This document shows positions 7,630-36,500 of a stretch of 45,638 nt of DNA, one piece after another. Each line of letters begins with the position of its first letter. The first letter of the stretch is position 1. Made by a program: the position numbers and the translations under genes. The stretch is from Methanomassiliicoccales archaeon (GTDB lineage Archaea; Thermoplasmatota; Thermoplasmata; RBG-16-68-12; SOIM01). Where the stretch lies: contig JAUVHO010000011.1 in the NCBI GenBank assembly GCA_030593295.1, positions 1 through 45,638 of the forward strand. Reading direction: 5' to 3'. The notes beneath the pieces are model-generated. The model saw only the letters and a list, made by a program, of their open reading frames with translations. It made no database searches and was not told where the DNA came from.

Positions 7630-8832
7630 CTAGAGTTTCTTACCGCAAACCGTGCATGCCTTCACCCGGTTAGCACATTCCTCATGATAGTTGGCTCCAC
7701 AAGAGTGCTGTACCGAGGCCATGCCCTTCTTGATGGTGGCGTTGCAGTACTTGCATATCTCCTCGGTAACGTACTCGTCGTCAGGCTTCACAATTGGCAG
7801 CTCACCAGCAAAGTGACAGAGAACGAAATGACCCGGTTCAACCTCCTTGAACTCAGGGAACTGGGACTTGCAGATGTCCTTCTTGTACAGGCATCTCGGA
7901 TGGAAGGTGCAGCCGGACGGCAGGTTGATAGGACTGGGCAGGTCTCCCTTGATCTTCACTCTACCATGCTTTGCGGTCGGGTCGGGAACGGGAACGGCGG
8001 ATAGGAGCGCCTCGGTGTACGGATGCATCGGGTTCTTGATGACATCTTCTGCATCGGCCAGCTCCACGAAACCTCCCAGATACATGACACCTATCCTGTC
8101 GCTCATGTACCTTGTCACGGAGACGTCGTGGCTTATGAACATGAAGGGGATACCGTACTCCTCCCGAAGGTTGAGCATGAGGTTCATGATCCCGGCCCTG
8201 ATGGAAACATCAAGCATGCTGACCGGTTCGTCCGCGACTATGAACTGGGGCCTCAGCACGAGTGTTCGGGCGATGGCAACGCGCTGCCTCTGACCGCCGC
8301 TGAGTTCGTGCGGAAACCTGTACATGAACTCCTCCGGGGGTTTGAGCTCCGCATATTCAAGCGCCTTCCGAACGAGCTCCTCCCTTTCCTCGATGGTGTC
8401 GCCGACGCCGTGGACTATCAGAGGTTCCGCGATGGTGGCAAAGACAGAGAGCCTGGGATTGAGGGATTCATACGGGTCCTGGAAGATCATCTGGACGCTC
8501 CTTCTGAATCTCTTCAGCTCCCTCCCCTTGAGCCCGCTGATCTCCTGACCGTTGAACTGCATGGTGCCCCTTGTAGGTGTCTCGAGACGGACCAGAAGCC
8601 TTCCGCACGTCGTCTTGCCGCACCCGCTCTCACCCACGATGCCAAGGATCTCCCTGTCATAGATCTTGAATTCCACGTCGTTGACCGCGTGGACGTTCGT
8701 CTCCTTGCCCAGAAGGGATGCGATGAAGCCTGCCTTTATGGGGAACAGTTTGGTGAGGTTCTTCACCTCCCAGACTACTCCGGATTTCTTCCCGACTTCC
8801 TCGATTGTAGCATCCGTGACTTCTGCTTCCAT
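7630..8832 (-). CDS. Oligopeptide/dipeptide ABC transporter ATP-binding protein (OppF-like) with C-terminal Cys/His-rich zinc-binding tail
   Basis: Walker A GESGCGKTT, signature LSGGQRQRVAIA, oligopeptide C-terminal motif GCTFHPRC; extra tail CKYCNATIKKGMASVQHSCGANYHEECANRVKACTVCGKKL. Start set to the ATG before MEAEVTDAT; the longer ORF overlaps oppD. Confidence 0.92.
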   Translation of the reverse strand: MEAEVTDATIEEVGKKSGVVWEVKNLTKLFPIKAGFIASLLGKETNVHAVNDVEFKIYDREILGIVGESGCGKTTCGRLLVRLETPTRGTMQFNGQEISGLKGRELKRFRRSVQMIFQDPYESLNPRLSVFATIAEPLIVHGVGDTIEEREELVRKALEYAELKPPEEFMYRFPHELSGGQRQRVAIARTLVLRPQFIVADEPVSMLDVSIRAGIMNLMLNLREEYGIPFMFISHDVSVTRYMSDRIGVMYLGGFVELADAEDVIKNPMHPYTEALLSAVPVPDPTAKHGRVKIKGDLPSPINLPSGCTFHPRCLYKKDICKSQFPEFKEVEPGHFVLCHFAGELPIVKPDDEYVTEEICKYCNATIKKGMASVQHSCGANYHEECANRVKACTVCGKKL

Positions 8833-8834
8833 GT

Positions 8835-10118
8835 CTAGACCTTCATCTTTCCAGTGTATATCTCCTCTGCGAAATGACAATATGATCTGTGATTCTTTGC
8901 GACCTCGATGGTCGGGGGCATCTTCTCCTTGCAGATGTCCTGCGCGAGCTTGCACCTGGGGTGGAACACGCATCCAACTGGGGGATTCGCAAGGTCCGGA
9001 GGGGAACCTGGTATGGACTTCAGTCTCTTCTTCTTCCCCTTGATGCTCGGGAAGGCGCCAGTGAGGCCGATGGTGTAAGGATTGGCCGGGTTCTCGAATA
9101 TTGAGACTATATCCCCCTGCTCGAACAACTTCCCGCCGTACATGATTGCGATCTTCTCGGAGACCTCCGCGACCACGGATATGTCGTGAGTGATTATCAT
9201 CATGGCCATGTGCATCTCCTTCTGCAGGTCCCGTATCTCGGCGAGTATTCGGTCCTGCATGATGACGTCCAAAGCCGTCGTGGGTTCATCGGCGATTATC
9301 AACTGTGGGTTCAGTGCCAATGCCATCGCGATTATCGCCCTCTGCCTCATTCCTCCGCTGAACTCGTGCGGGTATCCGGTGACCCTGTCTGGCTTAAGTC
9401 CAACGAGATCGAACAGTTCAAGTACCTTCTGGTGGGCCTCGTCCTTTGACATGTCCTCGTGAGTGAGAAGTGCTTCCGCGATCTGATCGCCGACGCGGTA
9501 AACAGGATTGAACGCATTCATAGCACTCTGGAAGATCATGGAAATCTCTGACCACCTGATAGCGGTCATCTTTGCCTCAATCTCCTTCTCTATCTTCCTC
9601 TTTCTCCTGTCGGCGAAGAACCCGGTTGTCTCGGCCTTGCCGGCCTCATAGAGCATATCCTTGAGATCTTCTGGTGCCACCCTGTCCTTTGTGGCCATTA
9701 TCTCACCGACCTCCTCCAGGAAGACCTCCTCCTCGGCAAGCATTATCTCTGATTCCCCTGGCATCTCACCGAGTCCCTTCTCCTTGAGGGACTGCATTGC
9801 GTTCAGTCTTCTCTCGAAGAGGGCCTCGACCCGGGGCAACCATCTCTTACGCTCCAGGAGCTCCAGCATCTCGGTGGCCGTGTCCGCCCTTGCCAGCACC
9901 ATGTCGTTGAACAATATCTCTCCACCGACGACGTGTCCGTTGAATGGCAGCAGACGGGTCATTGCGAATGCTGTGGTGGTCTTCCCGCACCCGCTCTCGC
10001 CGACCAGGCCCATGGTCTCACCTCTATCCAACTGGAACGAGATGCCGTCGACGGCCTTCACCTTGCCTTTGAGGATCTCGAAGTAGACTCTCAGGTTCTT
10101 TATGTCCAGCATTACCAT
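8835..10118 (-). CDS. Oligopeptide/dipeptide ABC transporter ATP-binding protein (OppD-like) with ~105-aa insertion
   Basis: Walker A GESGCGKTTT, Q-loop SMIFQSAMNAFNP, signature FSGGMRQRAIIAMAL, Walker B LIIADEPTTALDV, GCVFHPRCKLAQDIC tail. Confidence 0.93.
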   Translation of the reverse strand: MVMLDIKNLRVYFEILKGKVKAVDGISFQLDRGETMGLVGESGCGKTTTAFAMTRLLPFNGHVVGGEILFNDMVLARADTATEMLELLERKRWLPRVEALFERRLNAMQSLKEKGLGEMPGESEIMLAEEEVFLEEVGEIMATKDRVAPEDLKDMLYEAGKAETTGFFADRRKRKIEKEIEAKMTAIRWSEISMIFQSAMNAFNPVYRVGDQIAEALLTHEDMSKDEAHQKVLELFDLVGLKPDRVTGYPHEFSGGMRQRAIIAMALALNPQLIIADEPTTALDVIMQDRILAEIRDLQKEMHMAMMIITHDISVVAEVSEKIAIMYGGKLFEQGDIVSIFENPANPYTIGLTGAFPSIKGKKKRLKSIPGSPPDLANPPVGCVFHPRCKLAQDICKEKMPPTIEVAKNHRSYCHFAEEIYTGKMKV

Positions 10119-10127
10119 GTTCTCTGA

Positions 10128-13100
10128 TCACCTCTTCCTCAGACGCGGGTTGACGATCTGTTCGAATGCCCTGCCAATGAGATAGAATGCCAATGAGATG
10201 AATGTGATAGCGATACCCGGCGGCATCAACCACCACCACGCTGCAAGCACGTTCTCGGTCTGGACCGCCTGGAGCATCAGACCCCAGCTGGGGGTGTTCA
10301 CATCTCCAAGACCGAGGAAGCTCAGCGCCGCCTCCGCGAGGATGGATCCGCTCACCGCGAGAGTCATGTACAGGAATGCCAGGGGCATCACGTTGGGTGC
10401 CAGATGTTTGAACATTATGCGGATGTTGCTTGCACCTGTGACCCTGGCGGAATCGATGAAAGGCCTTTCCTTCAAAGAAAGGACCTCCGAACGAATGACC
10501 CTTGCAGTACCTGGCCACCCAATGATGGTCAGCACGAAGATGATGTTCCAGTAGCTCGGACCGAGCACTGCGGCGAGAATGATGAGGAAGGGCAAACCGG
10601 GTAGAACCAGAATGACATCAGTGAACCTCATCAGAACCGAATCGATCCTACCGCCTGAGAATCCGGATACCAGACCTATGATCGTGCCGATACCTATGGA
10701 GCCTGTAGCTGCAAGAAGTCCGACCGTGAGAGCGATCTGTGAACCCCACATCAACTGGCTGAAGATGTCCCTGCCCTGTGAGTCAGTCCCAAGTGTGTAG
10801 CAGTTACCGGAAGCGTAACATCCCGGCGGCAGAGGCGCCATGTTCTCGCCGGTGGAAGAGTATGCGTTCGCGATGCCCTCGCTTGTTCCGAACCAGACGC
10901 TGGGTGTCGGGTGAGTGCCCACATTGTCCTTCCAGATCGTTGGCGTACCTCCGATCCTGCCATCGATGGATACCCGCCAGGAGAGATTGCCGTCCTCTCC
11001 GAGGGCGAAAAGAGTCCCAATATCATCATCCAGATCCATTGGAGTGGTAAATCCCACATAGCCAGCGGCAAACAGCAACCGGTTGTGCATGGAGAACCTC
11101 ACCCCTCCAGCGAAACCGAAGCCAGCGTTGATGAGAATCCTATCGGAATAAATCCAAACCGTGGACCCAGCGGGGTAGCCTGGCAACGGATCCCTCCGGA
11201 TCGCGTAAAGATGTCCCGAACTAGAGCCCAGATAGATGAGGTCCCCGAAGAAGTCCGGTGTTGTGAGGACACCTCCGTCGAATGTCAGCACATCGATCAT
11301 TACCGGGATTCCTCCATCGGTAGCGGTCATATTGTCGTCCAGTCCCCGCTCCTCCCAAGATGCAAGGGAACTGCCGTTGTTCGCATACCTGGCATATATC
11401 CAGCCGTGATCGGTGGCAGCATATACGGCCTCAGTGAAATCAGGTCCTATCCTTCCTGGAATCGCGACTACGGGTGTGTTGGTCCATTCCGGACCCATGT
11501 CAAGGGATGGTGTGCCCCAGGCATCAGTACTATCTAAGGCGTTGATCGCGTGAAGTCCTCCATCGTTGACGAATATCATGGTTCCGTTCGCGTTGAGAGC
11601 TGGAGAGTAATTGGGATCGGTGGGCGTGCTGAGCGGAAATCCAGCCATCAGTATGGAGTTCTCGGTGCTCAACTGCCGGTACCATAGCCTGCTGAAGGTC
11701 CGGTCGTCGCCGCCGAAGATACGTGTCTCATTCCTGACAGAGTCATACACCATGGAGTGTCCGGTCCTTCCCGAGGGGTTTGAAGCGGGTGTCAGTTCGG
11801 TCCAGGCTGCACCATCAAATGCCCAGGTCTCATCCCAACCAGTATCCCCACCGAACATCAGAGTGCGGTTGTCAGCTACATCAAAGACAATGTCGTGGAA
11901 CATCCTCGGTGACGGTCCTGCGGGCGGGGTCAGGTCTGACCAGACGTGAGTAGATGAATTGTAAGTCCAGGTCTCGTTGCCGCCGTCGCTTCCACCGACC
12001 ATGACAACTCGACCGCTGGTGCTGTCGTATGTCATTGCGTGTCCATATCGGCCAGTGGGGAAACTACCCGACGTTCTGTTTATCCATCCCAGTCCGTCAG
12101 AATAAGTCCATGTCTCATTGGACCAATGATCTCCACCATACATCACTGTCATACCAGTACCTGCGTCGAAGGCCATTGCGGAGAAGGCCCTTGCCCAAAG
12201 ACCTGGTGGGATGCCCACCTGGGTCCAGTTGCTTGTAGCCACGTCGAAAGTCCAGGTTTCATTGCTCCAAGGATTGGCCCAGTCGTCGATGACGCCTCCG
12301 AAGAGTACGACATTCCCAGTGCTGGAATCAAAGGCCATGGAGTGACCGTATCTGGCTGAAGGGTGTGAGATCGTGTCGATCATGGTCCACACCTGGGTCA
12401 CTGGATCGTAAATCCAGGTCTCATCGTTGAAGATCCCATCGTTACCTCCGAAAAGAACCATCTTGTCGTTGATGGAATCGTAGACCATGCTGAAATTGGT
12501 CCTCGGGGACGGCCTGATCTCACCTTCTTCCAGAGGCATCGTGGACCAGTCTCCCGAGCCGAAAACCCAATTTTCATTGTCGAACTTGGTCGCAGAATAT
12601 GCATAGAGCCATCCGCCTTCGGTCCCGAAGAAGTACTTCTCAAGGGGGGCCCGACCCGAGACTGGATTGCTGTAGAGGGCAGTGGAGGTTATCGCACTGT
12701 CCAGCTGCTCGGAGTACACGCGTCCGTTGGCCACTGAGGGAGTCGGTTCCCTAAGGACGGTCGGATCGTCGTCGTAGTCCTCTATTATGTAGATGTAGCC
12801 GTCGTTAGTACCCACTCCGAGAAGGTAGTCCACATCGGCCGGATCGTACTGGTTCCCGAAGTTGGCAACCACGACGTCAGTGGAGAAGTGGGCATCGGTG
12901 ACATGCTTGAAGTCGAAGTTCTCAGGAGTGCCCGAATCAGTCCAGTAGGATCCCGCATCGCGCGGTTTCAAAGAAAACAATCTATTGCCTGAAGTGAAGT
13001 AGATCCTGTCGCATTCAGGCGACTGGCCGCCCGTTACGCGGAAGGACATAGTCTTGTTGATGGGTTCGCCCGCATTCCATTGTATTTGGGAAACGTTCCT

Positions 13101-13328
13101 TCCAACGCCCCACCACGAGTTCACCCGGATTATGTCTGCATCTGGTGCCCTCCAGTTGATGGGGTCCCTGAGGTTCATGAAAGGAGCGATGATGGCCATT
13201 CCGAGGAAGAAGAGCACGATGACGACTCCTACTACGCCGATCTTGCTTGCCTTGAACAGGTCCCAGTTCTGCTTGAAGACCTTCCGATACGCTCGAATCT
13301 TCTCCTTGATCCTGTCAGTATCCACCAT
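10128..13328 (-). CDS. DppC/OppC-like ABC permease carrying a ~790-aa extracellular kelch/PQQ-like β-propeller insertion
   Basis: N-terminal TM (KIGVVGVVIVLFFLGMAIIAPFM); C-terminal 220 aa canonical permease GTDSQGRDIFSQLMWGSQIALTVGLL...LSFLGLGDVNTPSWG...; six kelch-type repeats between, flanked by PQQ-like GYIYI/GWLYAY/GHLYAI blades. Confidence 0.92.
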   Translation of the reverse strand: MVDTDRIKEKIRAYRKVFKQNWDLFKASKIGVVGVVIVLFFLGMAIIAPFMNLRDPINWRAPDADIIRVNSWWGVGRNVSQIQWNAGEPINKTMSFRVTGGQSPECDRIYFTSGNRLFSLKPRDAGSYWTDSGTPENFDFKHVTDAHFSTDVVVANFGNQYDPADVDYLLGVGTNDGYIYIIEDYDDDPTVLREPTPSVANGRVYSEQLDSAITSTALYSNPVSGRAPLEKYFFGTEGGWLYAYSATKFDNENWVFGSGDWSTMPLEEGEIRPSPRTNFSMVYDSINDKMVLFGGNDGIFNDETWIYDPVTQVWTMIDTISHPSARYGHSMAFDSSTGNVVLFGGVIDDWANPWSNETWTFDVATSNWTQVGIPPGLWARAFSAMAFDAGTGMTVMYGGDHWSNETWTYSDGLGWINRTSGSFPTGRYGHAMTYDSTSGRVVMVGGSDGGNETWTYNSSTHVWSDLTPPAGPSPRMFHDIVFDVADNRTLMFGGDTGWDETWAFDGAAWTELTPASNPSGRTGHSMVYDSVRNETRIFGGDDRTFSRLWYRQLSTENSILMAGFPLSTPTDPNYSPALNANGTMIFVNDGGLHAINALDSTDAWGTPSLDMGPEWTNTPVVAIPGRIGPDFTEAVYAATDHGWIYARYANNGSSLASWEERGLDDNMTATDGGIPVMIDVLTFDGGVLTTPDFFGDLIYLGSSSGHLYAIRRDPLPGYPAGSTVWIYSDRILINAGFGFAGGVRFSMHNRLLFAAGYVGFTTPMDLDDDIGTLFALGEDGNLSWRVSIDGRIGGTPTIWKDNVGTHPTPSVWFGTSEGIANAYSSTGENMAPLPPGCYASGNCYTLGTDSQGRDIFSQLMWGSQIALTVGLLAATGSIGIGTIIGLVSGFSGGRIDSVLMRFTDVILVLPGLPFLIILAAVLGPSYWNIIFVLTIIGWPGTARVIRSEVLSLKERPFIDSARVTGASNIRIMFKHLAPNVMPLAFLYMTLAVSGSILAEAALSFLGLGDVNTPSWGLMLQAVQTENVLAAWWWLMPPGIAITFISLAFYLIGRAFEQIVNPRLRKR

Positions 13329-15050
13329 CTACAACCTCACCCTTGGGTCCATAAAGGCGTACAGCACGTCTGCAGCCACGTTAGCTAGAATAGTCAGAAC
13401 CGCCAGAAGGAAGAAGACTCCTTGAACGGCGGGATAGTCCTGTTGCAGGGTTGATTGGACGAGGTAGAATCCCATGCCCGGCCAGGAGAATATAGTCTCC
13501 GTGAGAACGCCGCCACTGACAACGCCGCCCACCGACATCGCAATCACGGTCACGACCGGAAGCATCGCGTTCCTAGCGGCGTGTTTGTACATCACCTTCC
13601 TTTCGCTCAATCCCTTTGCCTTGGCGGTGGTGATATAATCCTCCCCGAGGACCTCGAGCATTGAGTTCCTCATCAGAAGAATGGTGAAAGCGAGACCGAC
13701 CATCATCAGGGTAATCAATGGAAGCACCATGTGAGTGCCTACGTCCGCGATCTCTGCCCATATGTCTGGATACCCTTGAACCGCTAACTCCGGGGTTACC
13801 ATGCCTCCGAACGGGAACCAGCCTAGCTGGAAAGCGAAGGCCCATATCAGAATGATCCCGAACCAGAACAGGGGTATCGAGTAGAAGAAAAGAGAGATAA
13901 CAACCGCACTCAGCTCCATCCTTGTCCCCCTTCTCCAGGCAAGGAGGACGCCTATCAGTACGCCGAACACGGCCTGAAGTATCAGTGCAGAGCCGAAGAG
14001 CAAGATGGTGGGCGGTGCTTTCTCCTGGATCTCGGTCCACACTGGTCTTTGAGAGTAAAACGACTTACCGAAGTCCAGTTGCAGCATGCTGGTGAAGTAC
14101 ACCCAGAACTGTTCGAAGATGTTCCTCTCGGCGGTTACCTCGGGGTGGTACAAATCAACGACATCCACCCTTGCGTCAGGTCGAACGACAGTTGCGACCA
14201 CCGTGTTGTTGGTGTTCAGAATCTTGGCGTCATCGGACTCGACGGCTATGCTGACCCTTCCAAAGGCTACGTTGTATTCGTCCTGGTAGGTGAAGACTCC
14301 GCCTTCATCGGCAATCAAGGAGAAAGGTAGAAGCTGAGAATTCGGGAGGTTTGCTGCGAATGCGTAGTGGATTATTGATTCGTTTCCGTCCAGATCTCGT
14401 GCGGTGATGGCGACATCATAGTGTCCAGCCTTGTCGGGTATCATTGGACCGGATGAGAACCTCTGCCCAGATGCAGTGAAGAGAACATCAACCATGAAAT
14501 CCTCGGTCGCTCCGGTCGGGCTTATGTAGGTCACATTCGCTCGAACTTCAACATTGGATGGTGGTGTACCATCGAAGCTGGCGTAGACCGTCACAGTGTC
14601 GTTGACAACAGCAGTCCCAAGCCTCTCCATGGGTTCGTTGAAGAACTCCAAACCTCCGTCTTCGAGGAAGTTCACCAGCAAAGGGTCAACAGAGGCATGG
14701 ACCTGCAGAGGATTCTTGGGGGCATATTCTTCCCGCATGTTGTAGGTCGCATAAAGCTCGGCAGTGTTCCCGTCTTCATCTACCACGTTGATTGTGATCA
14801 GATATGCGCCGGGAAGGTCCGCATCAGATATGGAGGCCTCCCGGTAATGGCCAGGTGCGTCAACCCAGTGCCTGAAACCGAACTTCACCAGGAGCCTATC
14901 TCGAGTATCCTGCGTCTGACCGGGCTCGATGAAGAACCTGGTCGGGTCTCCGGGCATCAGACGGAAGATTATGAAGAGCAGAACAAGTACGACTAGCAGT
15001 GTGATTATGGTGTGTACGGCTCTCTTGATGAGGAATGTGCGCAGCCTCAC
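13329..15050 (-). CDS. DppB/OppB-like ABC permease with ~245-aa extracellular Ig-like insertion
   Basis: RLMPGDPTRFF N-terminus; EAA-type loop YITTAKAKGLSERKVMYKHAARNAMLPVVT; FSWPGMGFYLVQ; β-rich insert between TM1 and TM2. Confidence 0.92.
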   Translation of the reverse strand: MRLRTFLIKRAVHTIITLLVVLVLLFIIFRLMPGDPTRFFIEPGQTQDTRDRLLVKFGFRHWVDAPGHYREASISDADLPGAYLITINVVDEDGNTAELYATYNMREEYAPKNPLQVHASVDPLLVNFLEDGGLEFFNEPMERLGTAVVNDTVTVYASFDGTPPSNVEVRANVTYISPTGATEDFMVDVLFTASGQRFSSGPMIPDKAGHYDVAITARDLDGNESIIHYAFAANLPNSQLLPFSLIADEGGVFTYQDEYNVAFGRVSIAVESDDAKILNTNNTVVATVVRPDARVDVVDLYHPEVTAERNIFEQFWVYFTSMLQLDFGKSFYSQRPVWTEIQEKAPPTILLFGSALILQAVFGVLIGVLLAWRRGTRMELSAVVISLFFYSIPLFWFGIILIWAFAFQLGWFPFGGMVTPELAVQGYPDIWAEIADVGTHMVLPLITLMMVGLAFTILLMRNSMLEVLGEDYITTAKAKGLSERKVMYKHAARNAMLPVVTVIAMSVGGVVSGGVLTETIFSWPGMGFYLVQSTLQQDYPAVQGVFFLLAVLTILANVAADVLYAFMDPRVRL

Positions 15051-15089: not shown

Positions 15090-17936
15090 CTACTCTTCCT
15101 TTAGTTTCTTGATCTTGCGCCTTCTCTTCCTCTTTCCACCTTTCATCATCATGAAGGCGACAATGCCCGCCACCACGCCAGCAACGGCGATCCCCGCTCC
15201 GACAATGAGCCAGGGGAAGTCGCCGCCGGCCGTGGTTACATCGGCCACCACGGTCAAGGTGAAGTTCCTGTCAGTAGGTTCGTGGTTGGCCAAAGTGGCG
15301 GTAATGGTGATCAAATGGTCTTGATCTGAGTCCACTGCCGGCGCTATGAATTCGATGTTCTCGACGCTGTTGATGAAACCGTTCGTATCGGTGGTTCCAC
15401 TGCTGGGAGTGATCTCCGCTGGGGGATCAGAACTGATGACAACGCTTGCGCCATAGATCGGATTATCGTCCTGATCGGTGATCTTGACTCTCATCAGCGT
15501 TGGTCTTCCTTCCTCCATCAGGTCCCCACCCAGCAGGTTCACCAGCATGGACAGGAACAGTGCGCCGGGCGGATGTACAACGATCGTAATCGTAGCGTTC
15601 CTTGATTCAGGATAATTCGCGTGTGTTGCCTTCGCATAGATGAACATTGTTCGTTGAGTATCGTTCTTCACTAAGGTCGGCGGTTGGTAGGTCACCTTGA
15701 ACTGTCCGTTCAGGTCGGTGGTGCCAGTGACATAGTTGGATACTGTGGTTCCCAACACGAAATCCCCATCCGTGGAAGCAACGTATGCCTCAACTGTGGC
15801 CCCTTGAAGAACGTCACCGTCAGGGTCCCTAACGGTGGCAATGAACTTGGCTGTCTTATCGGTCTTGACCGCAGTCTGGATCGATGATGTTATTCGCAAC
15901 GGATCCGGCGGAGGCCGGTGAATGCCCAGCCAGGACCAGTAGGAGAAGATTGTTCCTGCCGCGCCTACAGTCCAGTTGGTGAACTTGTCGGACCTGTAGG
16001 CCTCGATGTTGGTCCTGAAGTACAGAACGTCGTATGGTCGGTCAAAGGCCAGCACACCCTGTGCCGTCTTGATGAGGTCGACCTGTTTCTGCGGATCGAG
16101 TTCCTCTCTGGCATCAAGTATCAGCTGGTCGAACTCGTCGCTCTGATATCCGGGATAGTTCTGACCCTGGGCCGCGTTCCTTGAGTAGAAGAAAGCATGG
16201 AAGTAGTCCGGTGGATCCGAACCTATCCTCCATCCGAGGATGAACATCTGGAAGTCTCGCGCGTCAATTCTCACTACGATCTCACCAAAGGCGGTTGGAA
16301 CCGATCTGGCATTTATTCCAGCTTCGTTCATCGCCTGTGCGATGAGAGTTCCGGCGGCGGCCCTGATCGGATCGTAGTCGGCGTTGGGGGTCAATATCTC
16401 TATCTCGCTATTGCCAATCTCCGGGAATGACCTGCACCCACTCGGGTTCGTATTGGAGCACGGACCGTCCGTGGAGGAATCCCATGGATCGTAGGTGTCG
16501 AGCAAAACGTCCGCCGCGGAGAGGTCGTACGGGAACTGGGGCAGTGAGCTGTTGTACCATCTGGCCAGCGTCGGGCTCACAGGACCGTCAGCAACGATCC
16601 CGTAGTTCTGCAACAGACTGGTGACGATGGTCTTCTTGTCGATCAAGTGCGCAACGGCCTGTCGGAAGTTCTTGCCCAGGTCCGGGTTCCGAGGATCTCC
16701 ACCTTGGTATCCGAAAGGCTCCCCTCTCATATTGTAAGATAGATAGAAGAAACCCTTTTCGGCCGTGCTTGTGATGCCGATGTTGGCGTCGTTAAGCAGC
16801 TCCGGAACGAATGCGGGTGGGATCGACCATGCGATGTAGTCAACGGCACCGCTCCTGAGGGCGAAGACGGCTGTCTGGGTGGTCTTGAACACCTTGAAGA
16901 GCATCCCGTTGATGTACGGCTTGTGGATGTATCCTTCACCTGTGTAGAAATCTTCGAACCTGGTAAGACTGGAGAACTTGCCGGGTTCCCACTGGTCGAA
17001 CATGAACGCGCCGGTTCCAATCACGTATTCGTCCGGAATGTCCCAGCTCTCGGCCAGACTGTAGTCGAACTTCCTGCCGTCGCTCTCCGGCACGCCGTTC
17101 CCGGTATCGGGATCATAGGCAATGCCGAAGGAGGCCATGGCAGATCCGTCTATGTTCTTGTGAATGCCGCACTTGAAGGTTGATGTGTCCTTCTGATAGA
17201 TGCAGCCTGTACCCTCCCAGAGATATGTGGGGAGTACACTCCAGGACATTGTGGCTCTGTAGAAGTTGGCATACGGGGCCTGCTGCTTGAAATGCACAGC
17301 GGCTCTCAGACTCGTGTTGTAGCTGGGGTCAGAGTAGTCCTTGGTCGTAATGCCCCAATCCGATGTCTCGCTGAATCCCTTCAACTCATTGAGATGCAGC
17401 CATCTTGTGATGCTGTAGTTCGATCCAGGCAGGTTGTTCTGGTCCTTCAATACGTCCAGTGAGATGGTCCTTGGATCCTTTGCCCACATGTGGTACGTGA
17501 ACAGAAGATCCTCAATGGTCGCCTGATATCCGTCATGGAAAAAGACGCCGTTGAAGTCGTAAAATGTAGTCACTTCCAGAGGTTTTCCGGGAATGCTTGT
17601 GAATTCTCCGTACTCATTATCCTGGAATATCCCGTCTCCGTTGACATCAGTACCTTTCAGGATATACGGCATCAATTCCTCGGTCTCCGGATTCATCTGG
17701 GTCACAGAATCGTACACCGGTCCCAGAACGTTCTGGGTCCATACGTCGCCAGATGCGAGTATGTTCCTGGTCTTGGGTTCGTCCTGTGCTCCTATGCTCA
17801 GAATCACATCTTCGTCCCCTCTCGTGTTGTCCCCAGCGACATACAGGGGAAACGAACCGAGCAGCAGGGAGAATACAAGTAATACGCTCACAATAGAGGC
17901 TATTCCTCTTCGGCTGTTTCTTCCGCCCATTTCCAT
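15090..17936 (-). CDS. Oligopeptide ABC transporter substrate-binding protein (SBP_bac_5-like) with Ig-like domains and C-terminal TM anchor (SBP1)
   Basis: Signal-peptide-like N-terminus; DVWTQNVLGPVYDSVT...LLFTYHMW...FRQAVAHLIDKKTIV; Ig-like repeats; C-terminal TM WLIVGAGIAVAGVVAGIVAFMMM followed by basic residues. Start uncertain (17957, 17936 or 17930). Confidence 0.9.
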   Translation of the reverse strand: MEMGGRNSRRGIASIVSVLLVFSLLLGSFPLYVAGDNTRGDEDVILSIGAQDEPKTRNILASGDVWTQNVLGPVYDSVTQMNPETEELMPYILKGTDVNGDGIFQDNEYGEFTSIPGKPLEVTTFYDFNGVFFHDGYQATIEDLLFTYHMWAKDPRTISLDVLKDQNNLPGSNYSITRWLHLNELKGFSETSDWGITTKDYSDPSYNTSLRAAVHFKQQAPYANFYRATMSWSVLPTYLWEGTGCIYQKDTSTFKCGIHKNIDGSAMASFGIAYDPDTGNGVPESDGRKFDYSLAESWDIPDEYVIGTGAFMFDQWEPGKFSSLTRFEDFYTGEGYIHKPYINGMLFKVFKTTQTAVFALRSGAVDYIAWSIPPAFVPELLNDANIGITSTAEKGFFYLSYNMRGEPFGYQGGDPRNPDLGKNFRQAVAHLIDKKTIVTSLLQNYGIVADGPVSPTLARWYNSSLPQFPYDLSAADVLLDTYDPWDSSTDGPCSNTNPSGCRSFPEIGNSEIEILTPNADYDPIRAAAGTLIAQAMNEAGINARSVPTAFGEIVVRIDARDFQMFILGWRIGSDPPDYFHAFFYSRNAAQGQNYPGYQSDEFDQLILDAREELDPQKQVDLIKTAQGVLAFDRPYDVLYFRTNIEAYRSDKFTNWTVGAAGTIFSYWSWLGIHRPPPDPLRITSSIQTAVKTDKTAKFIATVRDPDGDVLQGATVEAYVASTDGDFVLGTTVSNYVTGTTDLNGQFKVTYQPPTLVKNDTQRTMFIYAKATHANYPESRNATITIVVHPPGALFLSMLVNLLGGDLMEEGRPTLMRVKITDQDDNPIYGASVVISSDPPAEITPSSGTTDTNGFINSVENIEFIAPAVDSDQDHLITITATLANHEPTDRNFTLTVVADVTTAGGDFPWLIVGAGIAVAGVVAGIVAFMMMKGGKRKRRRKIKKLKEE

Positions 17937-17984
17937 TCCTCCTCTCCTGACCGCCAAGAAGGCAGAGTGAGAGTGGCATATTGG

Positions 17985-18199: not shown

Positions 18200-19234
18200 T
18201 CACAACCCGGTCGGGGATCCCGAATCGTCTGGGTAGTACATCCTCTTGCGGCCTTCTTTCCGCACCTGCACGAAGCCCTTCCTAGCCAGTATCCTGAGAT
18301 TGTAGCTTGCGACCTGCTGACTTATCCCCAGGTCCTCAGCGACGTCCTTCTGGGTCGGGGCCGGCCTGCGCCTCAAAGCGGCAAGAATGGTCATCTGCAT
18401 GTCGCTCAGTTTGACGCCCTTGTCCCGAGGGAACTTCATCTCTATGGGATAGAAACGCCGATAGATGCTCTCCTTTCTGGATTTGATGAATCCCTGGACC
18501 TCCAGTGTTCGTAGATGATAGGACAGGGTCCCGTTGGTGACCTTCATCTTCTCCCTGATCGAATTGTAGTGCTTGCCCGGGTTAGAGACGATGTATCCGT
18601 AGATCTGACCCCTAACGAAATGATCCAGGACCTCGTCCTTCTTTATCCTCGTATAAAGCGGGAAGGCGAAGATGTTGAAGAGCGAGAAGCCGGCGGATTC
18701 AGTGCTCGCGACGGCCATGGATGCGAAGGCCGCAAAAAGCGCTCCGAGCTGGAAGTACACGAAAGGGATTTCCTCCTCTTCCTCTTCCGGGGGCGGAACG
18801 ACGATGAAGATCTTGATGGAATCGTCCACTTTCTTCGAATCAAGAGCATCAGCAGAAGCAAGGACGGTGAAGTTGCCACCAACATCGTCCGCCGTCTCGA
18901 ACTCAGCCCACCAGATTCCGGTTTCATTTGCCGTTGTCAAATTAAGGTACTGGGTTCCGTGGGGATCTTCCATAGTGACGGACACATACGTACCATTCAC
19001 ATCTTCTCCTTCAACCAGGACCAGGCCTTGAAGAAGGAAGACTGATCCTGCCTCATGAGTCTCACCATCGGAGATGAATGACACAATGTAGAAGCTTTGC
19101 GGGCTTCCGGCGATGTTGGGAGTGGGTGAGATGTATCCAGGAGAGGAAGCACTGGATTCTTGAGGAATGAAGAAAAGCGAGAGGGCTAGAACAAAGGCAA
19201 CACTAACAGTGATAATGACCACGTTGGGTCGCAT
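18200..19234 (-). CDS. Membrane-anchored transcriptional regulator: signal/TM, extracytoplasmic Ig-like domain, TM, tandem wHTH (ArsR-like)
   Basis: N-terminal hydrophobic segment, β-rich domain, second hydrophobic segment (YFQLGALFAAFASMAVAS), then SIREKMKVTNGTLSYHLRTLEVQGFIKSRKE and TQKDVAEDLGISQQVASYNLRILARKGFVQVRKEGRKRMYYP. Confidence 0.85.
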   Translation of the reverse strand: MRPNVVIITVSVAFVLALSLFFIPQESSASSPGYISPTPNIAGSPQSFYIVSFISDGETHEAGSVFLLQGLVLVEGEDVNGTYVSVTMEDPHGTQYLNLTTANETGIWWAEFETADDVGGNFTVLASADALDSKKVDDSIKIFIVVPPPEEEEEEIPFVYFQLGALFAAFASMAVASTESAGFSLFNIFAFPLYTRIKKDEVLDHFVRGQIYGYIVSNPGKHYNSIREKMKVTNGTLSYHLRTLEVQGFIKSRKESIYRRFYPIEMKFPRDKGVKLSDMQMTILAALRRRPAPTQKDVAEDLGISQQVASYNLRILARKGFVQVRKEGRKRMYYPDDSGSPTGL

Positions 19235-19269: not shown

Positions 19270-19312
19270 TATATAAGTTCATTTGTAGGTGTTTTTGTGT
19301 GATATTTAATCC
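19270..19312 (-). promoter_or_regulatory. Promoter-like element copy B upstream of the membrane-anchored wHTH regulator
   Basis: Plus-strand tatataagttcatttgtaggtgtttttgtgtgatatttaatcc; aligns with copy A; its end overlaps the SBP2 stop region. Confidence 0.6.
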
Positions 19313-22300
19313 TTGTGTTCTTCCTCTGGGGTTGAGATTGTGGGTTCTTCGGAAGATACTACCTCTTCGGTTGATTCGTCGGATTCGGTTTTCTTTCTTG
19401 CCTTTGCCAACAAAATGAGAGAAGCGACCAACAGGACTACAATGACAGCAATCAAGCCCAGCCAACCAATGATAGGCAATATTCCTCCACACAGGGCCCC
19501 ATCCGGACAATCTGAAACAACTTCATTGTCGACGGTGAAGGGGATTTCGAGTGTCGTTGAATAATCAGTACCATCATAGGCCCTTAATCGGAGCGTGTGG
19601 TTACCGTTCTCAAGATCAAAGGTATTCAACAAGAAACTCCAGCGTGATGTGCCGGTTGCGTTCTGCCAACTGCCATCATCGATCCGAACTTCAACCCTGA
19701 TGATCTCGTCATTCCCATCCTCATCGCTGGCATCTCCCACGATATTGACTTCTCCAGAGAATTCCTGGCCTGGGGATATCGGTACAGAAACCACAGGAGG
19801 TTCGTTGTTATCGACGTACACTGTGACAGAGGATACCAAGGAGTAAGCAGCCCCGTCAAAGGACCTTGCGGAAATCGTGTGGGCGTCTTCTGACATGTTC
19901 TTGGTGTCGAGAATGAAGCTCCAGCTCTTAGTTCCACTTGCCATTTTCCAGCCGGTGCCATCGATATCAACCTCCACCATGTCCAATTGGTAGTCTCCAT
20001 CGGGGTCGTGAGCGGTTCCAAAAACGACAACCACGCCGCTGATCGTCTGGCCAGAGGACAATGAGGTTATTTCTACTTCCGGCTTCAAGTTGTTGATGAC
20101 TTTCAGAATCAGGCTCTCTTGTGCGGATTGGTGATCTGTCTTGACGGCCAAGATCGATATGAGATGATAGGTGTCCTGAATCACCATCGGAGCATTGAAT
20201 ATGACATTTGGCAAACCATCGATGAAGCCGTCGGTATCTGTGATTCCGCTGCTGGGATTGATGACCGCCGGAGGATCGGAATCGATGGTCACGCTCGCGC
20301 CGAGGACAGGGTTCTCGTCCCCATCAATGACCTGAATGCCAATAACCGCAGAACCTCCCTCGAGCACCAAATCGCCGCCCTGCAGATCGACCAATAAGGA
20401 GAGGAACTTGTCCCCTGGTGGGTGGACCCGAATGGAATCAGTAGTATTCATTGATTCATTGTATCCAGGATGTGTTGCCCAGGCATAAATGAAAACTGTC
20501 CTCGTGGTGTCGTTCTTTGCAAGAACGGGAGGAACATATGTCGCATGGAATTCCCCGTTCAGATCCGTCTGTCCGCTGACCAGGTTCGACCTTTGGACAC
20601 CGAGCAAGAATTCCCCATCTATTGGGTTCACGTAGACATTGACCGTAGCGTCGTAGATGGCACTCCCGTTGGAGTCGGTGACGGTAGCAGTGAACTCTGC
20701 TCTTTTGTCCGTCAACACATCAGTCTGGATTGAGGTGATGACCCTCAGGGGATCGGAAAGAGGCTCATGGATGCCTAGCCATGACCAGTAGTTGTAGATG
20801 CTCCCACAGGAGCCAACAGTCCAGTTGACGAACTTGTCAGACCTGTACGCCTCGATCATAGTCGGGAAATAGATCACATCGTACGGCCTGTCAAAGGCAA
20901 GAACTCCCTGGGATAGTTTGACCAAATCCATCTGGGTCGGACCGTCAAGTTCCTGTCGAGCCATAAGACTGAGCTGATCAAACTCATCGCTCTGATAGCC
21001 GGGAGAGTTGTCTCCTTGGGCTGCGTTCCTCGAATAGAAGAGGGAATGTAGGTACTCGGGGGGCTCCCGGCAGATCCTCTGATTGAGGAGAGCCATCTGA
21101 AAGTCTCTTGCTTCTATCCTGTCTTCGATTTCGGCCATTCCCATATGTTTCGATCTAGTATTGATTCCGACATCGTTCATGGCCTGTGATATCAAAGTGC
21201 CTGTCGCAGCCCTTATCGGGTCATACTCTGCATTGGGAGTAATGATCTCTATGGCGGAGTTCCCGATAACCGGAAACGTCCTGCATTTGCTTGGGTTCGC
21301 ACTAGTGCACGGACCGTCCATGGAGAGATCCCATGGATCATAAATGTCAAGCAAGGCGTCTGCCGCGATAGGGTCGTACTGGAACAGCGGCAATGAGCTG
21401 TTGTACCACTTACTCAGAACAGGGCTAACCGGTCCGTCGCCAACGATACCGTAGTTCTGCAGCAGACTGGTGACGACTGTCTTCTTGTCGATCAAGTGCG
21501 CAACGGCCTGTCGGAAGTTCTTGCCTAGGTCCCTCGCCGGATCTCCACCTTGGTATCCGAAAGGCTCCCCTCTCATATTGTATGTCAGATAGGTGAACCC
21601 TTCGGGCATTGTCGAGACGATGCTGATATTGGGGTCATCCATAAGCTCGGGCACGAAGGCAGGAGGAATGGACCATGCTATGTAGTCAATGGCCCCACTT
21701 CTAAGGGCGAAAACCGCGGTCTGGGTGGTCTTGTACACCTTGAAGAGCATTCCTTCAATATACGGAAGGTGGAGGTATGATTCCCCCACATAATACTCGT
21801 CGTTTCTGCTTAGACTTGAGAACTGACCGGGGACCCACTTGTCAAACATGAACGCCCCAGTTCCGATTACGTACTCGTCGGGAATGTCCCAGCTCTCGGC
21901 CAGAACGAAGTCAAAATCAAACGGATGGGAAGATGGCACACCATTCCCAGTAACAGGATCATAAGCAATGCCGAAGGAGTCCATGGGGGATCCGTCTGGG
22001 TTCTTGTGAATGTCACACTCGAAGGTTGAGGTGTCCTTCTCATAGATGCAGCCGGTGCCCTCCCAAAGATAGGTTGGCAAGACCCTCCTGGACAATGTTG
22101 ACCGGTAGAAATCCCAATAGGGAGCCTGTTGCTTGAAATGCACAGCGGCTCTCAGACTCGTGTCGTAGCTGGGGTCAGAGCAGTCCCTCGTAGTTATGGC
22201 CCAATCCGACGTCGTAGTGAATCCCTTCAGCTTGTTCAGATGCAGCCATCTTGTGATGCTGAAGTTCGAACCCGGAAGATTGTTCTTGTCCTTTAGAACG

Positions 22301-22773
22301 TCAAGGTCGATGTTTTTCGGGTTCATTGCTTCCACGTGGTAAGAGAACAGAAGATCTTCCACCGTCGCCTGGTACCCATCATGGAACAGAACGCCGTTGA
22401 AGTCGTAGAATGCGGTCACTTCCAGAGGTTTCGTAGGTATGTTTGCAAAGACTCCGTATTCATCGTCCTGGAAGACCCCGTCACCGTTGGCATCGGTTCC
22501 CTGTAATATGTAAGGTCTCAAATCCTCCGTCTTAGAGTCGATCTTGGTCACAGAATCGTACACAGGATCGAGAACGTTGTGGGTCCAGACGTCATTTGTA
22601 GCGAGTATGTTCCGGATTAATGGCTCTCCTTGTCCCCCGATCCTCAGAATTGGATCGCCTTGGGCCAAAACACTGTCAGGCATAACTACCGTGAATCCAC
22701 CAAGAACGATGGCAAGAACGATGAGATAGCTCATGGAAGATCCGAACGCCCTCCGATGATTCTCATGATCCAT
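19306..22773 (-). CDS. Oligopeptide ABC transporter substrate-binding protein paralogue (SBP2), with additional C-terminal Ig-like repeats and TM anchor
   Basis: Extensive collinear similarity to SBP1 (e.g. VHFKQQAPY.., PTYLWEGTGCIY.KDTSTF.C.IHKN.DGS, FRQAVAHLIDKKT.VTSLLQNYGIV); two extra Ig-like repeats (…DGTGWKMASGTKSWSFILDTKNM…, …DDGSWQNATGTSRWSFLLNTFDL…); C-terminal TM. Confidence 0.9.
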   Translation of the reverse strand: MDHENHRRAFGSSMSYLIVLAIVLGGFTVVMPDSVLAQGDPILRIGGQGEPLIRNILATNDVWTHNVLDPVYDSVTKIDSKTEDLRPYILQGTDANGDGVFQDDEYGVFANIPTKPLEVTAFYDFNGVLFHDGYQATVEDLLFSYHVEAMNPKNIDLDVLKDKNNLPGSNFSITRWLHLNKLKGFTTTSDWAITTRDCSDPSYDTSLRAAVHFKQQAPYWDFYRSTLSRRVLPTYLWEGTGCIYEKDTSTFECDIHKNPDGSPMDSFGIAYDPVTGNGVPSSHPFDFDFVLAESWDIPDEYVIGTGAFMFDKWVPGQFSSLSRNDEYYVGESYLHLPYIEGMLFKVYKTTQTAVFALRSGAIDYIAWSIPPAFVPELMDDPNISIVSTMPEGFTYLTYNMRGEPFGYQGGDPARDLGKNFRQAVAHLIDKKTVVTSLLQNYGIVGDGPVSPVLSKWYNSSLPLFQYDPIAADALLDIYDPWDLSMDGPCTSANPSKCRTFPVIGNSAIEIITPNAEYDPIRAATGTLISQAMNDVGINTRSKHMGMAEIEDRIEARDFQMALLNQRICREPPEYLHSLFYSRNAAQGDNSPGYQSDEFDQLSLMARQELDGPTQMDLVKLSQGVLAFDRPYDVIYFPTMIEAYRSDKFVNWTVGSCGSIYNYWSWLGIHEPLSDPLRVITSIQTDVLTDKRAEFTATVTDSNGSAIYDATVNVYVNPIDGEFLLGVQRSNLVSGQTDLNGEFHATYVPPVLAKNDTTRTVFIYAWATHPGYNESMNTTDSIRVHPPGDKFLSLLVDLQGGDLVLEGGSAVIGIQVIDGDENPVLGASVTIDSDPPAVINPSSGITDTDGFIDGLPNVIFNAPMVIQDTYHLISILAVKTDHQSAQESLILKVINNLKPEVEITSLSSGQTISGVVVVFGTAHDPDGDYQLDMVEVDIDGTGWKMASGTKSWSFILDTKNMSEDAHTISARSFDGAAYSLVSSVTVYVDNNEPPVVSVPISPGQEFSGEVNIVGDASDEDGNDEIIRVEVRIDDGSWQNATGTSRWSFLLNTFDLENGNHTLRLRAYDGTDYSTTLEIPFTVDNEVVSDCPDGALCGGILPIIGWLGLIAVIVVLLVASLILLAKARKKTESDESTEEVVSSEEPTISTPEEEHKD

Positions 22774-33559: not shown

Positions 33560-36500
33560 CTAATCAGTCGGTGGCGGCGGTGCCTCGTCTTCAGGTGGTG
33601 GGGGCGTCTCCTTGTCGGGCGGAGCAGGCGTCTCATCCGGAGGCGGTGGCGTCTCTTTGTCCGGCGGCGGAGGCGGTTCGTCAGGTTCGGGCACCTGATC
33701 CTCTTCCATCGGTGGGGGAGGCATTGCAACTTCCATCCTGGCCCTCTGGGCGGCCCTCTTCTTCCTGAGCCGCGCCTGTCTCCTTCTCTTCTCCCTGAGT
33801 TTCTCTTCCTCTTCCTTCTTCCGTTTTCTGCCGCTGGCGAAGATTATTGGGAGTGCGATGGCAACGAGAAGGATCATCAAGACTATGATCCACCAGTACT
33901 CTGCGAGGAAGTTCCCCCCGGTGGTTCCGTCATCATCGTTGGGTATTAGCGGAAGGTCGTCCTGACCGTCAAGTATCCCGTCGTCGTCGGTGTCGTTGTC
34001 AAGCGGGTCGGTCCCGATGGCGATCTCGTCCGCATCCTCCAGGCCGTCGTCGTCAGAGTCCCTGCTGAGCGGGTCGGTCCCTATCTGGTTCTCGTAATCG
34101 TCCGTCAGACCGTCGCCGTCGCTGTCCTTGGCGGTCACGTCGACCCATGTTGTGTCCGTATCCTTGTTGCCGGAAGAATCGGTCACTTCGAGGGTTATCG
34201 TGTAGTTACCAGGAATGTCAAAGGTATACAATGGGTTGGACCCTGTCAACAATACCGGGCTTCCATCATAATCGAACGTCCAGTTGAACTCGTCCACGTT
34301 GCCGAAATTGTCGCTGCTTCCCCTTCCGTCCAAGGAAACGACCGTCCCTTGCTCGATAGCTCGTCCCGGACCCGCATCCGCGACGGGTGGCGTCTGGTCA
34401 ACGACCGTGAACGTCTCCCACGAGGCGTTCCAGTTACCGCTTGTGTCCTTAACGGCCATGAAGTAGGAGAACTCGCCGAGGGCGCCAAATGAAAGCTCAT
34501 AATAGTAGTTGGCCACGACTCCCGGGTTCTCGATCATGGTGAAGTTGCCCATCGGACTGCCTGCAGGGGTGTAGATGATCACCCAGGCTCCAGCGAGCTC
34601 GAAGTTGTCGGTCGCATTCGCGGTCAGATTGAGGTCGCTGTACACTTCGACCTGCGGGTTGCTCTGAAGCGGCGTCACCGAGGGTCTGGTATCGTCCTCT
34701 ATCCTGAAGGTCCCGCCCAGCGTGTTCCAGTTGCCCACGAGGTCGGATACCCATATCATGTAGTCGAACCTTCCAAGAAGATCATAGCTTCTGGATAGCC
34801 AGTAATTCCCGGGGCTTTCCTCGTTCATGGAATAGTTGCCAACAAAACCGCCGCTCGGGTCGCTGATGTTCACCCACGCTCCGAAGACCACGTGGTTGTC
34901 CGAGACGGACGTGGTTATGTTGACCTCGAAGAACACTTCCTGCGGGTTGGGGTCGGCACCGATGCTGATGAAGGTCGGGTAAAGGGTGTCATGTATGGTG
35001 AATGAGCCGCTGGAGCTGTTCCAGTTACCGCTGAAATCGCTCGCCCAGATGGTGAAGTTGTACGTGCCCAGTTTGTCGTAGAAGTCCTTGTAGAAGTGCT
35101 GAAGTGCCAAGATGAAGAAGCTCATTGAGGTGTTGGTGAAAGCGAGGCCGTCGGGGTCGGTGATGTCGATCAGGACCTGGTCCACCTGGTGGTTGTCGGT
35201 CACGAACAGGGTGACGTTCACGGATCCGTGTATCTGCTGGGCTGCCGGGTTGATGCCGAGGTTGTTCATCTCGGGAGGCGTCCAATCATCGATGATGAAC
35301 GAACCCTGCGAGGAGTTCCAGTTGTCGTACACATCAATTGTCCAGATGGTGAAATCGTAAGTTCCCAGCTCGGTGTACATCCTGCGGTAGTAGTAGAGGT
35401 CACCAGGCCCGGATGTCATGGACACGTTGGTGGTTGTCATGTCTGGCGCCACTACCTTGATCCACACATCGACCAGCCCGTAATCATCCCACACGTCCGC
35501 TGAGATGTTCACGAAGCCGAAGATCTCCTGTGGGTTCGGTGTCGCGGCCACGTTCTGAATGAGAGGCGGATTGCGTTCAATGGTGCACACCCGCATTGTG
35601 TCTATCGCATAGTTGCCGGCGGTGTCTGTCACGTTCAGGTCGACATCATAGCAGGATGCGGTCAGGAATGTGTATTGGGGGGTCACCCCCATCATGGTCT
35701 GCGGGGTTCCGTCGAAGAAGGTCCACACATAGGATGCGATCTGGTAGTTGTCGCTGGATCCGGTACCGTCGAAGTTGACCGCTGTCCCGATCAGTACATT
35801 GAATTGATCAGGTCCCGCATCGGCAATGGGGAAGGTCGAATCCTGGACGACGAACTGCCCTCCGGTGGAGTTCCACAACCCCAGACTGTCGACAGCCCAA
35901 GCTATGAAGTTGAACGTTCCGAGGATATTGTACGCATCATCATGATAGAAACTGTCGAAGAGTCCGCTGTCCATGGTAAAGTTGGTAACGGCCGATAACG
36001 GGTCGGTGATCTCCACCCAGACGTTGGATAAGAGGAAGTTGTCCGTCACATCCAAAGAGATATTGACCGATCCAAACACCTCTTGAGGTGATGGAACGGC
36101 TAGAAGGCTGCTCAACTCCGGAGGGGTCGTGTCCTGTATCGTGAACATCCCAGATGATGTGTTCCAGTTGTTGTTGATGTCCTCGGCCCAGATGTCGAAT
36201 GTGTAGTCCCCCAGGTCGGGGTATGTATCGTAATAGAAGTACTTCCCGGAACCGACATCGAAGCCCATGGTGAAGTTCCCGAAGGGGGTCAGGTCGGGAT
36301 TGGTGATGGCCACATCTACCCTGTTCACGCCTGTGTTGTCCAGTACCAGTGAGGAGATGTTCACGAGTCCGAACACTTCCTGCGGATTGGGCTGCGCGTT
36401 TACCTCCAGGATCAAGGGCAGTTGTACGTCTATGACATCCACGATGATGTTCCCGCTGTTGTTGAGGAAGGTCTCGCCGAGAGAATTGGAATAGCCGTCC

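Follow-up and report, generated by a model that had tools for sequence, protein, structure and literature searches.

In the usual picture of type I ABC importers, a free binding protein lands on a bare pair of membrane subunits. The locus described here raises the question of how a permease subunit of 1066 amino acids fits this picture, what its additional residues are, and what they may do for the importer. The gene lies in the window, by which we mean the whole analysed stretch of 45,638 nucleotides of DNA from an uncultured sediment archaeon, at positions 10128..13328 on the minus strand, and it forms a single open frame.

The N-terminal transmembrane helix and the C-terminal permease core that the original prediction had assigned to this DppC-like protein are both kept. 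TM1 (aa 29–50; 13179..13244, on the minus strand like all parts of the gene) is preceded by a cytoplasmic N-terminus and is seen as a helix at 29–50 in the AlphaFold model and as a hydropathy segment at 22–55. It falls into the OppC_N region (Pfam, aa 19–52), which gave E 4.4e-5 and 23.7 bits versus a cut-off of 23.9 in the protein scan, and 30.4 bits, above the cut-off, in the genome scan. The core, comprising TM2–TM6 with the EAA loop (aa ~834–1066; 10131..10829), contains BPD_transp_1 (PF00528) at aa 881–1065 (E 3.7e-28, 98.9 bits, cut-off 26.4), and aa 834–1064 align with residues 68–299 of E. coli DppC (E 1e-43). Position 834 thus corresponds to E. coli residue 68, and the short TM1–TM2 segment is replaced by ~785 aa, close to the ~790 aa first claimed. 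The protein is subunit C of a peptide-type ABC importer, with its TM1–TM2 loop enlarged into an ectodomain. All named equivalogs of NCBIfam (DppC, OppC, NikC and others) stay below their cut-offs for this core, the best being Opp4C with 234.5 versus 350 bits, and "peptide" as the substrate is presumed from the family names.

The middle of the ectodomain had been read as six kelch repeats at ~11690–12520. The repeats were indeed found, with that span slightly too narrow: the six-bladed kelch propeller occupies 11691..12584 (aa ~249–546), as delimited by Pfam kelch families, the junctions to kelch-free relatives, the model strands and the repeat listing. Kelch families match well above their cut-offs at aa ~248–545 (Kelch_3 in five stretches, E 1.9e-30, 104.8 bits; PF24681, E 4.4e-34), and six A–B units starting at aa 273, 323, 378, 424, 473 and 518 are visible in the sequence. 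The AlphaFold2 model of the 1066-aa protein alone, calculated from 29 own and related sequences, has a mean pLDDT of 81.4 and a pTM of 0.73 and gives the strand order of propellers, with six A–B and six C–D strand pairs at aa 253–538 (blockwise pLDDT ~75–95). In this order the first C–D pair (253–264, ENWVF..WSTMP) stands ahead of the first A–B pair, while the last A–B pair (525–538) has no C–D pair of its own, so that the kelch ring would close by uniting its two ends. This closure, like the relative orientation of the propellers, is read from the predicted strand order. With the model as query, Foldseek leads from the core to E. coli DppC, from the insert to kelch domains (LZTR1, the designed SAKe6, KEAP1) and from the whole chain to multi-propeller proteins.

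The segments flanking the kelch part were thought to be PQQ-like blades. These blades are real, with the reservation that the window protein alone does not reach the Pfam family PQQ_2; its close relatives do (orthologue L050, 32.4 bits; paralogue L043, 34.0 bits; cut-off 27.6). Profile A3, built from the ectodomain without kelch, matches the solved PQQ propeller 3hxj (1.5e-18), BamB (about 1e-11 to 1e-14) and designed Cake propellers (to 2.5e-35) in the PDB. The N-terminal part of this host propeller comprises the first D strand, blades 1 and 2 and strands A–C of blade 3 (aa ~67–248; 12585..13130), while the C-terminal part comprises strand D of blade 3 and blades 4 to 8 (aa ~547–833; 10830..11690; A3 match at 10827–11729). 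Eight host repeat units can be counted both in the sequence and in the model strand order, the model strands 95–245 and 547–829 fit eight PQQ-type blades, and an extra strand at 67–71 may supply strand D of blade 8. We infer an eight-bladed PQQ/BamB-like propeller, whose ring closure is likewise taken from strand order. Because one end of its chain leads to TM1 and the other to TM2, it would sit on top of the pore.

Profile A3 also matches quinoprotein dehydrogenases at low score (1flg, 1.5e-6), and an NANM epimerase profile matches the standalone paralogue L043 (8.5e-7, 28.6 bits versus a cut-off of 45). One could read this as an enzyme or a cofactor-binding propeller of the quinone, sugar oxidase or epimerase type, which processes the substrate prior to uptake. 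The top matches, however, are to propellers of the structural or binding type (BamB, a plain PQQ-repeat protein, the Cake designs), and no enzyme family of Pfam or NCBIfam reaches its curated cut-off. We consider a catalytic role to be very improbable.

The point at which the kelch propeller enters its host can be located exactly, since relatives exist that possess the host propeller and lack kelch (L048, L050; ~760 aa). The empty site reads FVGTSEGHLYAFAASN-LSLIWEQSFG in L050, and the window has FFGTEGGWLYAYSATK-[~298 aa]-SRLWYRQLS at the same site. From this alignment it follows that kelch interrupts host blade 3 in the loop leading from strand C to strand D. That one propeller is nested within a blade of another inside a permease, as had been proposed, is supported by the Pfam and PDB profile matches, by the exact empty-site relatives and by the AlphaFold strand order. 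The protein is also an evident natural instance of one propeller nested in another, the unnested state of which is still preserved.

Could the arrangement be an artefact, in which misassembly fused an unrelated kelch gene to a permease? Contigs end inside the kelch part in four genomes (G003, G010, G014, G016), and the one-contig genome G004 has the gene halves 0.43 Mb apart, showing that the stretch is hard to assemble. Against this stands the same uninterrupted full-length frame in two congeneric genomes (G001 and G002, 89% and 91% identity), and the nested DppC is also encoded in one frame in the more distant G018 and G005. Among the three congeneric copies, dN/dS amounts to 0.10–0.17 in the host propeller and 0.15–0.21 in the kelch part; the ectodomain is under purifying selection, also across the junctions. 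Because the congeneric genomes carry the same continuous frame, and given these dN/dS values, we reject the frameshift or assembly error at the junctions that had been named as one way in which the prediction might fail. An artefact is extremely improbable.

The search for homologues with the same insertion site gave a second nested domain. In family f5 (L051, L052), an insert of ~360 aa separates strand A (VTGMAAFTGD) from strand B (ILVAGTAAG) of the same host blade. It contains seven repeats of ~48 aa (GxYASLALDxxxxPxIAYYDxxxxxLKYAxxxGxxW), five or six of them placed by motif and the remainder by eye, which are preceded by an apparent second-half unit (WFNGTAWVTRVV). This insert has no match in Pfam, NCBIfam or the PDB sequences. 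Modelling gave a structure of intermediate confidence (mean pLDDT 69.7, with low values at the two junctions), which in Foldseek leads to multi-propeller proteins; the seven repeats together with this model point to a propeller-like domain. In propellers, the A–B and C–D loops lie on the same face, and hence the kelch and f5 domains should both exit from one face of this blade. The tree calculated from the permease core alone groups the kelch-bearing families f1 and f2 (92/76) and places f5 among insert-free relatives; one calculated from 768 shared columns is concordant, although the kelch group is less well supported there (80/78). On these columns, a single origin of all nested inserts was rejected (AU, p=0.003). 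Together with the trees this indicates at least two separate insertions. The host propeller is the older layer and kelch a later one, confined to f1 and f2, and the unrelated seven-repeat domain entered the same blade independently in a third family.

The host propeller is matched in 19 of the 37 genomes of the window's order, including all searched f1, f2 and f5 genomes, several genomes being partly assembled there. In a phylum-wide sample of 343 genomes, the ectodomain profile has strong matches only in the window's class, with three weak partial matches elsewhere, and within the class further families also have the host propeller in their DppC, inserted at this site. The window's own genome holds a second operon (C42), whose DppC ectodomain is diverged and kelch-free. 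Since many members of the order do without kelch, this layer is not required for transport as such. Are the nested propellers then just tolerated inserts or spacers, which have no specific ligand and for example raise a docking site through the surface coat? The kelch-free empty-site relatives are in line with this idea. Additionally, differing domains fill the same DppC loop in other families, namely propellers and acidic repeats (L123, L125), and two different inserts in one blade suggest that size may outweigh identity. The low dN/dS over the kelch part and the retention of kelch in two families, however, argue against a mere spacer. So does the fact that both insertions share one blade and one face, which may on the other hand merely reflect where the fold tolerates insertion. 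All in all we regard a spacer role as unlikely.

The importer operon, on the minus strand, comprises SBP_bac_5, DppB and two oligo_HPY ATPases. The DppB-type partner (13329..15050, 573 aa; Pfam) has an Ig-like insert of its own of ~260 aa (aa ~41–304, DNA ~14139–14930), and its residues 305–572 align to E. coli DppB 56–336. The solute-binding protein SBP1 (15090..17957, 955 aa; SBP_bac_5 by Pfam) bears C-terminal Ig-like domains and a TM anchor that are recognizable in its sequence. The OppD-type (8835..10118) and OppF-type (7630..8973) ATPases both match ABC_tran and oligo_HPY, and OppF ends in a RING-like zinc-binding segment (Prok-RING_1, 403–441, below cut-off). A second solute-binding protein (19306..22773, minus strand, 1155 aa; SBP_bac_5 plus Ig, Pfam) is encoded upstream in the same direction, with a winged-helix regulator gene between the two SBP genes (18200–19234). 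The order SBP-DppB-DppC-OppD-OppF is kept in relatives wherever the contig permits a view.

The f2 genomes and G002 also contain a standalone paralogue, which has the whole nested ectodomain and a single TM and lacks the permease core. In two genomes its gene directly precedes another SBP gene in the same orientation, with a gap of ~108 nt in G005 (L047) and of ~81 nt in G014 (L120, gene cut by the contig end). No such neighbourhood was found for the copy in G002 (L043), and further copies lie at contig ends. That the standalone paralogue gave rise to the ectodomain of the permease is unlikely: the host propeller is already present in kelch-free permeases, and the f2 standalone protein is 53–66% identical to the f2 permeases versus about 33% to the f1 standalone protein.

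In the E. coli importer, DppA forms a cap over DppB and DppC, into which the scoop, the TM1–TM2 region of DppB, inserts (PMC12136057). The Ig-like insert of the window DppB is located in this very TM1–TM2 region, where the E. coli protein bears its SBP-contacting scoop. The propellers, because they replace the TM1–TM2 segment of DppC, should stand at the SBP landing site. Our preferred reading, which we judge about equally likely to hold or to fail, is that the ectodomain is a module of DppC for SBP docking and substrate capture; it is based on the enlargement of DppB and the SBP as well and on the pairing of ectodomain and SBP genes, and both the SBP contact and the gain in capture are inferred. 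An anchored SBP would have to land on DppB/DppC for peptide release, and the ectodomain would position it there. The kelch propeller would offer a second binding face, either for the extra Ig domains of the SBP or for a surface protein or peptide substrate. A large subtilase (33560–38851, 1763 aa), encoded in the window on the same strand as the second SBP gene and about 11 kb upstream of the latter, fits the use of extracellular protein. If docking and capture are indeed the function, the system would show how protein-degrading sediment archaea, which have no periplasm, retain the substrate of an importer.

The ectodomain contains 16 N-glycosylation sequons, a number that shuffled sequences (7.5 expected) attain in 4 of 2000 cases, and the core contains none; this excess argues for a probably extracellular location. 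Among the three congeneric copies (G000, G001, G002), dS is 0.03–0.11 over most of the core and mostly 0.13–0.9 in the ectodomain. The nearest pair shifts along the gene: it is G000–G002 in kelch, where codons 351–500 give a dS of 0.13–0.18 for this pair versus 0.49–0.91 for the pairs with G001, and G001–G002 in some segments of the host propeller. A comparable hot region lies in SBP1 (codons 451–550, dS up to 2.3). In these three genomes the pattern suggests that surface-exposed segments may be exchanged by recombination.

Propellers of the kelch and PQQ-like kinds serve widely as binding scaffolds, and this, together with the richness in sequons and the raised, partner-changing dS, would also suit a surface adhesin or receptor. 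The ectodomain, and above all its kelch layer, would then bind glycans, particles, the surface coat of the same cell or other cells, and the transporter would only carry it. A free adhesin, however, would need neither the embedding between TM1 and TM2 nor a conserved importer operon, and with dN/dS staying at 0.1–0.2 the excess of amino acid changes of an arms race is missing. We consider this explanation rather unlikely. Returning to docking and capture, one may tentatively extend the idea such that the one blade is a general socket for whole unrelated propellers, which retarget the SBP or the substrate that is captured, with the socketed segment being swapped between strains by recombination. 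This extension is possible, if clearly less probable than the docking module itself. The empty-site relatives provide a ready comparison for testing the function of the module.

In summary, the usual picture of the bare membrane pair contrasts with a permease that has two layers of extracellular binding domain and whose partner DppB and SBP are enlarged too. The original prediction knew of no precedent, and we found no published description of the arrangement in the open literature, most subscription journals being outside this coverage. Large DppC ectodomains at the site are nevertheless common, so that uniqueness in this respect does not hold: DppC-type frames of at least 500 aa account for 66 of the 150 OppC_N matches listed for the window's class. 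What fills the loop varies among them, examples being the acidic repeats of L123 and L125 and a chain with additional membrane helices in L127. Compared with DppC/OppC of DppABCDF/OppABCDF (E. coli 8z1v-8z21; M. tuberculosis 8wd9, 8j5q), the core is 34–38% identical (Foldseek), and the EAA region and the partners DppB, OppD and OppF with oligo_HPY and SBP_bac_5 are shared; the known subunits, however, have ~290–300 aa and a short TM1–TM2 segment where the window protein has its nested propellers. The host repeats match PQQ-repeat/BamB propellers by profile, yet BamB and the quinoproteins exist as proteins of their own, soluble or lipid-anchored, whereas the host is tied at both ends to permease TM helices. 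The kelch part shares its six repeats with known kelch propellers (LZTR1, KEAP1, KLHDC2, plant specifier proteins, SAKe6; Foldseek TM-scores about 0.5–0.8, target-normalised), but sits inside the blade of another propeller, beginning with a C–D half and finishing with an A–B half. Several propellers per chain, some threaded through one another, occur in DDB1, CPSF160, Utp21 and Elp2, and DDB1, Utp21 and Elp2 are among our Foldseek matches of multi-propeller type. These proteins are eukaryotic, soluble, WD-like and outside transporters, unlike the transporter subunit described here. In the maltose importer, likewise of type I, the permease MalF extends a large extracytoplasmic loop, P2, next to the binding protein; this loop is Ig-like, has ~180 aa and is a different loop in a different permease family. 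The host, kelch and permease parts are therefore members of known families, and what is new is how they are combined and nested, and that one blade has been used repeatedly.

In other members of the class, from family f12, about 750 aa of acidic repeats (HENVTAAFDDNGISLSNDATITEIEDGWRI) take the place of propellers in the TM1-TM2 loop of DppC, as seen in the dppC genes at L123:761-3946 and L125:1545-4649. We also found a second type of operon at five loci of the class (L061, L064, L065, L068 and L071), which combines a DppB of normal length (ca. 330 aa) with a DppC of about 760-800 aa and very long solute-binding proteins of 1500-1950 aa. In genome G008, DppB and DppC form one apparent open frame of 1698 aa (L052:7101-12194) that contains two BPD_transp_1 domains, and judging from this single frame the permease pair may therefore be one polypeptide.

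In the one-contig genome G004, the kelch-bearing dppC lies in two pieces at distant sites (L074 and L075, at ~467 kb and ~901 kb), with the break inside the kelch part, and contig ends fall within kelch in G003, G010, G014 and G016. Either the kelch repeats were misassembled, or different kelch genes have recombined with one another.

In the gene of the solute-binding protein SBP1 (15090-17957, minus strand), codons ~451-550 stand out: when G002 is compared with the two remaining congeners, synonymous divergence here reaches 1.75-2.34, several-fold that in the rest of the gene, and this stretch looks like a replaced segment.

Elsewhere in the window, a 1578-aa frame (38950-43686, minus strand), for which no Pfam match was obtained at E 0.01, neighbours the gene of a PKD-containing subtilase of 1763 aa (33560-38851).

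Finally, the ATPase OppF carries a fused RING/C1-like cysteine-histidine segment at its C-terminus (7651-7767, minus strand; CKYCNATIKKG...CGANYHEECANRVKACTVCGKKL), which Prok-RING_1 matches with 18.5 bits, under the cut-off. Such a tail is unusual among the ATPases of ABC importers.
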